DNA of 64,000 bases from Desulfovibrio sp. TomC (GTDB lineage Bacteria > Desulfobacterota > Desulfovibrionia > Desulfovibrionales > Desulfovibrionaceae), in the NCBI RefSeq assembly GCF_000801335.2, contig NZ_JSEH01000018.1, forward strand, positions 1-64,000. The letters are read 5' to 3'. The notes beneath the pieces are model-generated. The model ran no database searches, was not told the DNA's origin, and saw only the letters and a list, made by a program, of their open reading frames with translations. Positions 27,681 to 31,556 of this stretch are shown here, piece by piece; position 1 is the first letter of the stretch; every line of letters starts with the position of its first letter. A program made the position numbers and the translations under genes.

Positions 27681-28376
27681 TCACGGCATCCTGATGCCGT
27701 CCCGGCAGGAGCCGAACAACCGCCGCACATCCCCGGCCACGGCAGTGAACGCCGCTACCACTTCCGGATCGAACTGGCTGCCCGAGCAGCGTACGATTTC
27801 CCGGAGGGCCTCGTCAAAACCCATGGCTGGACGGTAAGGCCTGGTTTGCAGCATGGCGGACAGGCTGTCGGCCACACAGATAATGCGCGCCCCAAGCGGA
27901 ATGGCTTGGCCGCAAAGCCCTTGGGGATAGCCGCCGCCGTCGAAGCGCTCGTGGTGGGCCTTTACCATTGCAACGATGCCGGTCTGGGCAAAGCAGGTCA
28001 GCGGCAGGAGGATCTCCGCGCCGATGACCGGATGGGCCTTCATTTTCTCCCATTCATTCGGGTTCAGGCGGCCGGGTTTGCCAAGCACGGCGTCGGGTAC
28101 GCCGATTTTGCCGATGTCATGCAGGTGGCCGGCCACATGGATGCAGGCGGTCGCCTCCCGGGGCAGGCCCATGACCGTGGCCAGGTAGTTGGCCACCTCG
28201 GCCACCTCCTCGGAATGGGCCAGGGTATGCGGGTCCTTGGCGTCAATGGCTTTTCCGAGAGAGGCGGCCAATTCGTGGACCAGGGCCATCAGCGCGTCCT
28301 GGTCCGGACCGGCAGGTGCGGTCAGGACCTCAAAGACCCCGGGTACGGCAAGAAGCAGGCTTGGCGGCATGGTCAT
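27681..28376 (-). CDS. Stand-alone HD-GYP domain protein (probable c-di-GMP phosphodiesterase)
   Basis: 231 residues made almost only of an HD-GYP domain. HLHDIGKIGVPD has the metal-binding HD and Lys, and HHERFDGGGYPQGL is the GYP motif. ARIICVADSLSAML holds the later conserved Asp. It would cleave cyclic di-GMP. No receiver or other sensory domain is present. It starts 22 nt after the stop of the HMA-like gene of the P1B ATPase operon, so it may be the last gene of that operon. The start is uncertain (ATG 28376 or 28370; no clear Shine-Dalgarno). Confidence 0.87.
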   Translation of the reverse strand: MTMPPSLLLAVPGVFEVLTAPAGPDQDALMALVHELAASLGKAIDAKDPHTLAHSEEVAEVANYLATVMGLPREATACIHVAGHLHDIGKIGVPDAVLGKPGRLNPNEWEKMKAHPVIGAEILLPLTCFAQTGIVAMVKAHHERFDGGGYPQGLCGQAIPLGARIICVADSLSAMLQTRPYRPAMGFDEALREIVRCSGSQFDPEVVAAFTAVAGDVRRLFGSCRDGIRMP

Positions 28377-28398: not shown

Positions 28399-28830
28399 TC
28401 AAGCCAAAAAACGGCGACGGTGCAGGTACAGATGCCAGGCGGCAAACCCGGCCAGAGCGAGACCGAAGGCCAGATGGGCGGTCTTGGCGTCGGCCAGTCC
28501 GGTGGCCACGGTGGCGGCCATGCAGCCGGCCAGGCCGATTTTCTGGGTACGGCGTTTGAGCTGCGCGTTGGTCATCGTCTTTTGGGCCGGTTGGCCGGCA
28601 GCCAGGGTCTGGGCATGGGTGGCGGCCAGGGCTTCGGCCATGGCCGCCAGATCGTCGGTGGCCACGGACTCGTCGTGGGTCACCAGGACACTGCCGGTCC
28701 GGGGATTGGCTTCGATGGCGGTGATGCCGGACATCTGGGCCAACTGGCTGGTCACAATCGCAAGCAGGTCAGGGTCGGACAGGGCCGGGTGCCGGAACCG
28801 GATACGGCCTTCAAGGCAGCTGGCTATCAT
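28399..28830 (-). CDS. HMA-like membrane protein, FezC-like candidate
   Basis: 143 residues from ATG 28830, overlapping the ATPase stop by 20 nt. Residues 1-75 resemble a heavy-metal-associated (HMA_2-like) fold, but with no CxxC. The N-terminus holds GRIRFR (residues 8-13), echoing GRMRLR at residues 12-17 of the ATPase. Residues 90-143 are hydrophobic with two helices and a basic end (HRRRFLA). A small HMA-plus-membrane protein after a P1B ATPase fits FezC of ferrosome operons; that assignment is inference from layout and recalled literature. Confidence 0.6.
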   Translation of the reverse strand: MIASCLEGRIRFRHPALSDPDLLAIVTSQLAQMSGITAIEANPRTGSVLVTHDESVATDDLAAMAEALAATHAQTLAAGQPAQKTMTNAQLKRRTQKIGLAGCMAATVATGLADAKTAHLAFGLALAGFAAWHLYLHRRRFLA

Positions 28831-31042
28831 GGGCGACGCCTCCGCAGGGCAGTTGTTTGGGGAGATAGGGACGCAGGCTGGCCAGGGCAATGCCCATGGT
28901 GGCCAGGTTATGGGCCAGGGCCGAGACGCCCGGGGTGATGCGGCCCAGAAGGCCCAAGCCCAGGATGACGGAATTGATCAGGCAGATGGCGCGAAAATTG
29001 GAGCGCAGCCGGCCCATAAGGCCGCTTGCGATGTCGCGCAGGGCGACCACGCTTGTAAGGCTCCCTTCGGCCAGCAGGATATCGGCGGCGGCCTGGGCAA
29101 TGTCCGCGCCATGGCGCGGGGCAATGCCGACGTTGGCTGCGGACAGGGCCGGCGAGTCGTTGATGCCGTCGCCGACCATGGCCACGACATGCCCGGCCTC
29201 GCGCAGTTCGCGCACAATACGGGTCTTGTCTTGGGGCAGAACCTGGGCATGGTAGTCGGTGATGCCGAGTTCCCGGGCGGCGAGGGCGGCCGGAGCGGCG
29301 GCGTCGCCGGTAAGCATGACCAGCCGCGTCACGCCCCGGGCGGTCAGTTCGCGAAGGACCTGCGGTGCCTGGGGAACGAGCGGATCCTCGATGGCCAGTA
29401 CGCCGGCCACCGTGTCGCCAATGGCCAGATACAGGGTGGACAGGCCGGCCAGGCCACGGGCTTCGATGGTGGTGTCGGCCTCGGTGATGTCGATGCCTTC
29501 GTCCTCGCCGATGAAGTGTCGGCTGCCCAGGCGCACCCGGTCGGTCCCGACCATGGACGACAGGCCGTGGGCCAGGATGTAGTCCACGTCGGCATGGAAC
29601 TCCTGGTGCTCGACTCCTTCCTGTTCGGCCTGACGGACCACGGCCCGGGCTACGGGATGGGGGAAGTGCTCTTCCAGGCAGGCGGCCAATTTGAGGACGT
29701 CGTACCGGGTGGAGCCGTTTAAGGGTTCAACGGCCGCCACCTTGGGCCGGGCCTGGGTGAGCGTGCCGGTCTTGTCGAAAACGAAGGCGTCGGCCGAGGA
29801 CACGCCTTCCAGGAACTTGCCGCCTTTGACCAGGATGCCGCCGGAGGCAGCCTCCCGCATGGCGGCCAGAACAGCCAACGGAGCCGAGAGCTTGATGGCG
29901 CAGGAGAAGTCGACAAGCAGCACGGCCGAGGCCAGGCGCGGGTTTCGGGTGAGGGCAAAGACCGCCAGCGCGCCAAGCAGGGTCCAGGGCACGACGGCAT
30001 CGGCAAAGCGTTCGGCCAGATCCTGGGCCTTGGCCTTGAAGTTTTCCGACTCCTCAATGACCCCCACCATCTTCTGGATGCGCGTCTCGCCGCCGGATTT
30101 CTCCACCCGGACAACGATCCCGCCTTCCTCGACCACCGTGCCGGCAAAGACCGTGTGCCCCGCCCGTTTGTGGGCGGGCAACGGTTCGCCGGTCATGGAG
30201 GCCTGGTTGACCAGCCCCTCGCCCTCGGCCACCACGCCGTCGACCGGTATGGCGTTGCCTCTGGTGACGATGGCCAGATCGCCGGGCACGACCTCGGAGG
30301 CCGGGATGTGCACCGGACCGGCCTCACGCCGCACCCAGACGGCGTCAAAGGTGGCGGCCAGCGTCTCGGCCAGACTGTCGCGGGAGCGTTTGCGGGTGGA
30401 GCTTTCCAGCACTTCGCCAAGCCCGAGCAGCAGCGCGATGCCGGTAGCGGCCCGGTAGTCCCGACGGGCGACAGACACGCCGATGGCCAGGGCGTCGAGA
30501 ACCTCGACATTGAGTTTGCCGCGCAGCAGAGCGGCCGCCCCTCGCTTGATAAACGGCAGCACCCGCTTGAGCAGGAAGAGTGGGCGAAAAGCCGGCGGCA
30601 GGATCGCGCGCGCCAGGAACATGCCGGCTTCACGGGCCATGGACTGCATCGGGGTGGTGACCGGGGCTTCGGCCGGGGCCGCAAGCTTGTTTCCGGCCGC
30701 CTGGGCATGGCGGTTGACCGTACCCGGCGCGGTTCTGGTTGTTTTCTTGATGGTTCTGGCGGCCTGGGCCGCCAGGGTGGGGGTGCGGGATCGGGGACCG
30801 GCCAAGGGGGCCTTGGCCGAACAGCCGTTTTGGGCCATGGCCTGGAGGGCGAGGCGCACCCGCGCTCCGTCGTACAGGACCAAAAGGCCGCAGGTAGGGG
30901 CCGAGGCGATCACCTCGGCCACGCCGGAAAGGGCCGAGGCGGCAGCGGCCATGGCCGGAGCCTTGGCCGAAAAGGTTTCGGGCGAGGCGAAGCGCAGGCG
31001 CATCCGCCCCGGAATATCGTGAACAATGGCGCAGTGCGTCAT
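28811..31042 (-). CDS. fezB: P1B-type heavy-metal ATPase, candidate ferrosome ATPase FezB
   Basis: 743 residues. The N-terminal HMA-like domain lacks CxxC and begins with IPGRMRLRF. The actuator has TGE (about 285-287), the phosphorylation motif DKTGTLT starts at Asp423, HP is at 462-463, and GDGIND at 624-629. The membrane metal-site motif is SCA (Ser380-Cys381-Ala382, in VDFSCAIKLSAP) instead of CPC or CPH, so it is not an ordinary copper or zinc exporter. Such ATPases, called P1B-6 as I recall, include FezB, which loads iron into ferrosome organelles of anaerobes. A small membrane gene precedes it and an HMA-like gene follows. A Mn, Fe or other metal exporter remains possible. Confidence 0.68.
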   Translation of the reverse strand: MTHCAIVHDIPGRMRLRFASPETFSAKAPAMAAAASALSGVAEVIASAPTCGLLVLYDGARVRLALQAMAQNGCSAKAPLAGPRSRTPTLAAQAARTIKKTTRTAPGTVNRHAQAAGNKLAAPAEAPVTTPMQSMAREAGMFLARAILPPAFRPLFLLKRVLPFIKRGAAALLRGKLNVEVLDALAIGVSVARRDYRAATGIALLLGLGEVLESSTRKRSRDSLAETLAATFDAVWVRREAGPVHIPASEVVPGDLAIVTRGNAIPVDGVVAEGEGLVNQASMTGEPLPAHKRAGHTVFAGTVVEEGGIVVRVEKSGGETRIQKMVGVIEESENFKAKAQDLAERFADAVVPWTLLGALAVFALTRNPRLASAVLLVDFSCAIKLSAPLAVLAAMREAASGGILVKGGKFLEGVSSADAFVFDKTGTLTQARPKVAAVEPLNGSTRYDVLKLAACLEEHFPHPVARAVVRQAEQEGVEHQEFHADVDYILAHGLSSMVGTDRVRLGSRHFIGEDEGIDITEADTTIEARGLAGLSTLYLAIGDTVAGVLAIEDPLVPQAPQVLRELTARGVTRLVMLTGDAAAPAALAARELGITDYHAQVLPQDKTRIVRELREAGHVVAMVGDGINDSPALSAANVGIAPRHGADIAQAAADILLAEGSLTSVVALRDIASGLMGRLRSNFRAICLINSVILGLGLLGRITPGVSALAHNLATMGIALASLRPYLPKQLPCGGVAHDSQLP

Positions 31043-31069
31043 GTGTAATAACTCCAGCCGAAGCCAGGG

Positions 31070-31330
31070 TTAAGCCGACTCGCCTTCAGTGACGGGTTTG
31101 CTCTCGCGGGCATCCTTGGCATGTTTGGCTTCAGCCATCAGGTCTTCGATATTTTCCTTGGCCCGTTCCAAAACCGATGCCGTTTTTTCCTTGAGGTCCA
31201 TGCCATGGGACAACAGATCGGTCATGGCCGGTCGGACCGAAAATTTGCCCTTGCCCAGGGCCACCGCGCCCAAGGCTCCAAGGGCCACCCCGGCAACCAG
31301 AAACAGTCCGTTTTTGAGAGAATCATTCAT
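31070..31330 (-). CDS. Small single-span membrane protein, FezA-like candidate
   Basis: 86 residues from ATG 31330, with AAGGAG 8 nt upstream. One membrane helix with a Gly/Ala face (about residues 8-28, NGLFLVAGVALGALGAVALG) is followed by an amphipathic charged tail. It is the first gene of the ATPase operon, 27 nt before the ATPase start, and a Fur-box-like site lies about 110 nt upstream. Small membrane proteins accompany FezB in known ferrosome operons; similarity here is by position and topology only. Confidence 0.6.
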   Translation of the reverse strand: MNDSLKNGLFLVAGVALGALGAVALGKGKFSVRPAMTDLLSHGMDLKEKTASVLERAKENIEDLMAEAKHAKDARESKPVTEGESA

Positions 31331-31426
31331 TGGCTCAGCTCCTTTTCTAACGAGTGACGGTGCGGGCAGTTTCTCAGACCGCGTGCTCAGTGAGGCATTT
31401 GGGTGACGGCCCAAATACAGGGGGGA

Positions 31427-31455
31427 TCATTATTGAATTTGAAAATCGTTGTCAA
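31427..31455 (-). promoter_or_regulatory. Promoter of the P1B ATPase operon with Fur-box-like operator
   Basis: TGAAAATCGTTGTCA at 31440-31454 matches the 7-1-7 Fur consensus TGATAAT-N-ATTATCA at 12 of 14 informative positions. It is flanked by TTGA...TCAA symmetry. On the minus strand it overlaps TTGACA (31455-31450), a perfect -35 hexamer, with TAATGA 17 nt or AATAAT 15 nt downstream as -10. Fur bound there would block transcription of the small membrane protein, ATPase and HMA-like genes when iron is plentiful. Confidence 0.6.
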
Positions 31456-31499
31456 CATCAATAAAGCAGTCTCTCCTCCTCAGGGTCCGGGAGAAAGAC

Positions 31500-31534
31500 A
31501 AAAAAAAGACGCCGGCGGATACAATCCGCCGGCG
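31500..31534 (-). terminator. Rho-independent terminator of cydB
   Basis: On the minus strand an 11-bp stem CGCCGGCGGAT / ATCCGCCGGCG with loop TGT is followed by TC and then a run of eight T. It lies 22 nt past the cydB stop and separates the cyd transcript from the ATPase operon. Confidence 0.92.
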
Positions 31535-31556
31535 CCGTTGCGTGGAGTCGTTTGGC

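Follow-up and report, generated by a model that had tools for sequence, protein, structure and literature searches.

A probable fezABC ferrosome operon in Desulfovibrio sp. TomC, a Solidesulfovibrio species

Three fez genes and their counterparts in strain RS-1

The minus strand of contig NZ_JSEH01000018.1 of Desulfovibrio sp. TomC carries three intact open reading frames (positions 28399-31330 of the window, that is, of the 64,000-nucleotide stretch analyzed here), which, with a probability of about 0.93, make up the ferrosome operon fezABC of a Solidesulfovibrio species (Table 1). The first-pass annotation of this DNA had described a Gly-rich single-span protein of 86 residues, a P1B ATPase with an SCA motif, and a small HMA-like protein, in tight order behind a Fur-box-like operator, and had read them as a ferrosome operon. 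The reading frames and their motifs bear out the three-gene set, while the coordinates agree with the order that had been given, with 27 nucleotides between fezA and fezB and an overlap of 20 nucleotides between fezB and fezC.

The ferrosome identity itself is supported by a comparison that the annotation had suggested, with the sulfate-reducing sister species Solidesulfovibrio (Desulfovibrio) magneticus RS-1 (G005), one of 13 other genomes in a genus set of 14 that includes the host (completeness 69-100%). G005 was recognized as RS-1 by its plasmid, the first 8000 bases of which are 100% identical to RS-1 record NC_012797.1. Each of the three genes has an orthologue on the RS-1 chromosome (3191455-3194380), with gene order unchanged and identities of 83.7, 83.4, and 79.5% for fezA, fezB, and fezC, and the RS-1 copy sits, as in the window, between cydB and an HD-GYP gene. 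The two loci also share the overlap, the SCA motif, the HMA domain, and two FezC histidines, but the center of the operator differs, reading TTGACAACGAGAATCAA in RS-1 (11/16) versus TTGACAACGATTTTCAA in the window (14/16). With 18 of 29 candidates scored, FezB has a single RS-1 match at E ≤ 1e-100. Since gene order, protein sequences, and the overlap (20 nucleotides in all seven genus copies) are kept in 7 of the 14 genomes, the arrangement goes beyond chance.

After iron starvation, RS-1 forms iron-phosphorus organelles enclosed by a membrane, even without its magnetosome island (PMC4287615), and it is a ferrosome-making species (PMC12748827); these and the other papers are cited here from excerpts. 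In Clostridioides difficile, ferrosomes need FezA and FezB, both Fur-repressed (PMC12574912). Compared by description, the C. difficile system resembles the window operon in having FezA as a membrane protein and FezB as a transporter, and the window also has a Fur-like site, but the excerpted account (PMC12574912) gives fezAB without mention of FezC, whereas the window has fezC. Rhodopseudomonas palustris CGA009 carries a fez operon of six genes, RPA2333-2338 (PMC12016538), which by description serves the same organelle with six genes versus three in the window. The window operon is a further intact copy of this recently described system, of a kind already known.

Table 1. Positions of the fez genes and associated features (window coordinates unless a locus is named).
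Feature	Position	Strand	Description
fezA	31070..31330	minus	86-residue Gly-rich single-span membrane protein, charged tail; 84% identity to RS-1 orthologue
fezB	28811..31042	minus	743-residue P1B ATPase, SCA motif, HMA-like head without CxxC; 83% identity to RS-1 orthologue
fezC	28399..28830	minus	143 residues, HMA domain and long helices, invariant His119/His133; 79% identity to RS-1 orthologue
Fur-box-like operator TTGACAACGATTTTCAA	31439..31455	minus	14/16 match to dFUR consensus WTGAAAATNATTTTCAW
Sigma-70-type promoter-like site TTGACA-18-AATGAT	31426..31455	minus	consensus match only; -35 within operator
Terminator-like hairpin 3' of cydB	31508..31536	minus	consensus match only; 13 pairs, 8-T tail
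Second cluster	L133:6589-14548		also L132, L134, L135, L136

The operator-like site and the neighboring genes

The Fur-box-like operator claimed by the annotation is present, and it is the only site in the window with up to three mismatches to the delta-proteobacterial Fur (dFUR) consensus. Rodionov et al. gave this box as WTGAAAATNATTTTCAW and reported overlapping boxes offset by 6 bp in Desulfovibrio (PMC545781). In the whole genome, 23 places, the fez site among them, match with up to two mismatches, versus 3 for a reversed-pattern control; another of the 23 precedes feoA (named by reading) and feoB, where three Fur-box-like matches lie offset by 6 bp each (L163:2922-2950; G000:C5), the extra ones scoring 12/16. 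All seven genus copies of the fez operator retain TTGACAAC and the first TCA, and the second step, 6 bp on, reads TCA in five and TCG in two. Out of 16 consensus positions, the window copy matches 14 and the RS-1 copy 11, the others matching 12, 11, 11, 13, and 12. The promoter-like site begins within the Fur-box-like site. Judged from these sequence matches, Fur control of fezABC is likely.

Upstream of the fez unit, on the same strand, are cydB, cydA, and a gene for an Rrf2-type regulator; downstream are the HD-GYP gene, a porin-like gene, and type II secretion genes (all named by reading translations). The terminator-like hairpin 3' of cydB may separate cydAB from the fez unit. In the stretch scanned, 2 promoter-like sites were found versus 0.3 expected, and 5 terminator-like sites versus 2.6 expected.

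The HD-GYP-type gene (window 27681-28376) encodes an HDIGK motif and has its ATG 22 nucleotides 3' of fezC; this ATG lies 18-22 nucleotides past the end of fezC in six of the seven genus copies. We considered this gene as a member of the fez operon and rejected it. All six genomes without fezABC retain it behind cydB, so it is a neighbor and not a fez gene. From its position, it may nevertheless be transcribed together with the fez genes from the fez promoter.

The three Fez proteins

FezA has one membrane span, at residues 8-26, in a hydropathy scan (19-residue windows, threshold 1.5), and a PHROGs search with it found no match. Domain searches recognize E1-E2 ATPase and hydrolase domains in FezB, and the helix that forms its metal site, DFSCAIKLSAP, contains SCA, the class motif of P1B-6 ATPases. 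As the annotation had stated, its HMA-like head is devoid of CxxC (none within residues 1-150); the match of this head to HMA_2 is weak (E 0.0041) and below the model cut-off. The GRxRxR element said to be common to the ATPase and the last protein is found in both, as PGRMRLRF in FezB and EGRIRFRH in FezC.

A tree of P1B ATPases, the other comparison suggested by the annotation, places FezB with its RS-1 counterpart and the SC-motif ATPases. It comprises 117 rows, with no named CtpC sequence included, and was made by a quick search with a midpoint root and several long branches. A FezB scan of genome contigs contributed SC-motif rows from 14 of 80 loci among the matches listed, many of which were probably drawn in by a single short pattern that P-type ATPases share; the rest served as an outgroup. 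The 40 rows with an SC motif (SCA, apart from a few SCG and one SCT) all fall with one other row into a single 41-row clade (Shimodaira-Hasegawa-like approximate likelihood ratio test, 97), which also includes ATPases from Methanobrevibacter and Clostridia. Inside it, the FezB proteins of the window and RS-1 belong to one 5-row set with a support of 100, the window protein being closest to that of G013 and next closest to the G007/G008/RS-1 group. Seven other places in the host genome match FezB, four of which are in the tree (three CPC and one other), all outside the SC clade. Together, the SCA motif and the tree position would class FezB as a P1B-6-type ATPase.

P1B ATPases are mostly exporters. 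The operon might therefore be read as a plasma-membrane metal-export system, detoxifying Mn, Zn, Cu, or Fe with FezA and FezC as accessory subunits and without any organelle, and FezB does score above the cut-off of the NCBIfam general heavy-metal P-type ATPase and cadmium models, with copper exporters its nearest solved structures. However, FezB differs from CPC-type Cu/Zn/Cd exporters in having SCA instead of CPC and in lying outside the main CPC clade (52 rows), and it groups with the RS-1 ATPase. The conserved histidine pair of FezC and the Fur-like operator also speak against export, and derepression under iron starvation would be ill-suited to removing excess iron. We consider a metal-export operon most unlikely.

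Among the relatives of FezB, a short FezA-like frame stands directly ahead of the SCA ATPase in 6 of 12 named loci (11 of the 14 SC loci plus L044; by reading). Such a frame is directly 5' of an SCA-type ATPase in Methanobrevibacter (L039:5404-7839 and L040:312-2755). In Clostridiales bacterium CHKCI001 (L035:4660-8067), an SCA ATPase and its FezA-like frame are immediately preceded by FeoA-like and Fur-like frames. Anaerosolibacter (L044:3118-8214) has a tandem pair of P1B-type ATPases with a short Gly-rich FezA-like frame in between, and Peptacetobacter (L045:3979-8393) has an SCG-type P1B ATPase amid several HMA-like proteins with GRIR motifs. These loci, too, were interpreted by reading.

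FezC matches HMA_2 above the cut-off (E 7.6e-10), as do all 14 FezC homologues. Its predicted fold (mean predicted local distance difference test score 79.7, predicted template modeling score 0.47) has an HMA-like head followed by helices at residues 58-79, 88-112, and 116-136, and its top solved-structure matches are mostly HMA domains, none at E ≤ 0.001. Residues invariant in the 14 aligned homologues include Gly8, Arg9, Arg11, Arg13, His119, and His133, the two histidines being on one helix, 14 residues apart (His-X13-His). In cytochromes b, a 14-residue spacing of histidines positions two hemes, one on either side of the membrane. The invariant pair fits the heme binding published for one FezC, that of Desulfurispirillum indicum, which was reported, in the excerpt consulted, to bind heme b (PMC11334425). 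A PHROGs search with FezC gave one weak match (E 0.052). Searched against plasmids, FezC had three weak HMA-domain matches, from Azospirillum, that cover 38% of the query, and we claim no plasmid-borne relative.

Several observations weigh against the ferrosome reading. As for the operator, when the window was shuffled 100 times, 22 of the shuffled sequences held at least one site with up to three mismatches, so the match in the window is weak when taken alone. The RS-1 operator scores only 11/16, and RS-1 and two close copies have a better match (13/16) ~230 nucleotides upstream of fezA. As for FezB, Fe(II) is its putative metal, its closest solved structures are the copper exporters mentioned above, and seven further CPC rows of the tree approach the SC clade more closely than the 52-row CPC clade does. 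As for FezC, its C-terminal part reaches no better than E 0.088 against DUF4405, short of the cut-off, and only 4 of the 14 homologues match that model at E ≤ 0.1; the hydropathy scan, with the settings used for FezA, found no span in it, so the case for its membrane helices comes from the predicted fold and from the published description of a membrane protein. Finally, the RS-1 locus is presumed to be fezABC from its gene content. DMR_28330, presumably the tag of RS-1 FezB, roughly fits its chromosome position as interpolated from tags in the excerpt of PMC4287615, a matter of consistency and not of proof. Our literature search found no paper mentioning the presumed tags DMR_28320, DMR_28330, or DMR_28340, and none pairing Desulfovibrio magneticus with P1B-ATPase.

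Building on the observed gene identity, conservation, operator-like site, and conserved histidines, we infer how a ferrosome operon might work in this host, transport direction and granule formation being transferred from RS-1, and the redox step, the role of FezA, and Fur control being likewise inferred. Upon iron starvation, Fur would leave the operator over the -35 element, and the three proteins would be made and inserted into the membrane. When iron returns, FezB would load cytoplasmic Fe(II) into membrane vesicles at the expense of ATP, and the iron would precipitate there with phosphate. A FezC homodimer could hold b hemes between its paired His-X13-His helices, with its HMA domain on the cytoplasmic face near FezB, and could carry electrons from one side of the vesicle membrane to the other, thereby controlling whether iron is Fe(II) or Fe(III) and hence stored or released; we propose this electron-shuttle step because of the heme finding and the suggestion made in the excerpt of PMC11334425. 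FezA, with one Gly-packed helix and a charged tail, might help to shape or mark the vesicle.

Distribution in the genus and a second cluster

fezABC is intact in 7 of the 14 genus genomes, absent in 6, and reduced to a remnant in 1. In the six genomes without it (G001, G002, G003, G004, G006, and G011), cydB is followed by the HD-GYP gene with no fez genes between (empty sites L151 and L153-L157), a pattern that suggests gain or loss of the operon as one unit at the cydB/HD-GYP spot. The remnant, in G012 (L152:4300-5207), has an intact fezA, while only residues 1-32 and 708-741 of FezB are left; its fezC match begins at residue 10 or 5, with an ATG out of frame with the rest, in a frame without a stop. 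It is apparently either a fezB deletion that arose in nature or a mistake in the assembly.

The genus can do without the locus, which 6 of 14 genomes lack and 1 has in decayed form. This, together with the fact that granules are not visible from sequence, would be compatible with an intact operon that serves only iron redox or trafficking in the host species, granules being rare or absent. Against this stand three intact genes with 79-84% identity to those of RS-1, a ferrosome maker according to the excerpt of PMC12748827, which makes such a restricted role extremely improbable.

We also found a second cluster in genomes without the fezABC operon. A MamC-family protein and a 105-residue HMA protein occur in exactly 5 of the 14 genomes, all of them among the six without fezABC; no genome has both fezABC and the second cluster, and one has neither. 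Gene order was read in L132-L135 (four of the five genomes) and in L136 (one family member). A CPC-type P1B ATPase comes first. Next are the HMA protein and a long protein with Tyr/Gln/Pro/Gly repeats, then the MamC-family protein and a small Gly-rich one, and last a FezC-type His-pair protein of 77-79 residues and an SC-type P1B ATPase. The first ATPase of the cluster accounts for five of the seven CPC rows that approach the SC clade in the tree. The MamC-family protein matches its NCBIfam model with E 7.9e-13 and 48.5 bits, below the cut-off of 100. The His-X13-His part of the cluster is a sequence match to FezC. FezA finds no sequence match in the second-cluster loci or genomes, the Gly-rich protein resembling it by layout only. 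A FeoA protein follows the cluster in L133 (E 1.5e-22) and L135 only (two of the five loci read), and for G002 the evidence of the cluster consists of its MamC, HMA, and SC-ATPase matches.

The second cluster may equal a published six-gene type. Our literature search found no paper joining "MamC-like" with "P-type ATPase," and the excerpt of PMC12713370 mentions MamC and ferrosome without linking them. As for the window operon itself, we rejected membership of a magnetosome gene set, no NCBIfam MamC match being found in the host genome (other magnetosome genes were not searched).

It is conceivable, although we hold it to be somewhat doubtful, that two iron-organelle systems, fezABC and the larger MamC-family cluster, replace each other within the genus. 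If so, a magnetosome-type mineral-shaping protein would act in a ferrosome-type organelle, linking two iron organelles. The second cluster is more interesting than the window operon and merits a study of its own. The window operon adds an intact, syntenic fezABC beside that of the model species RS-1. With fezABC copies, empty sites, and an apparent fezB deletion all available within one genus, tests of the role of each gene, and of why ferrosomes are kept or lost by a species, are practical.

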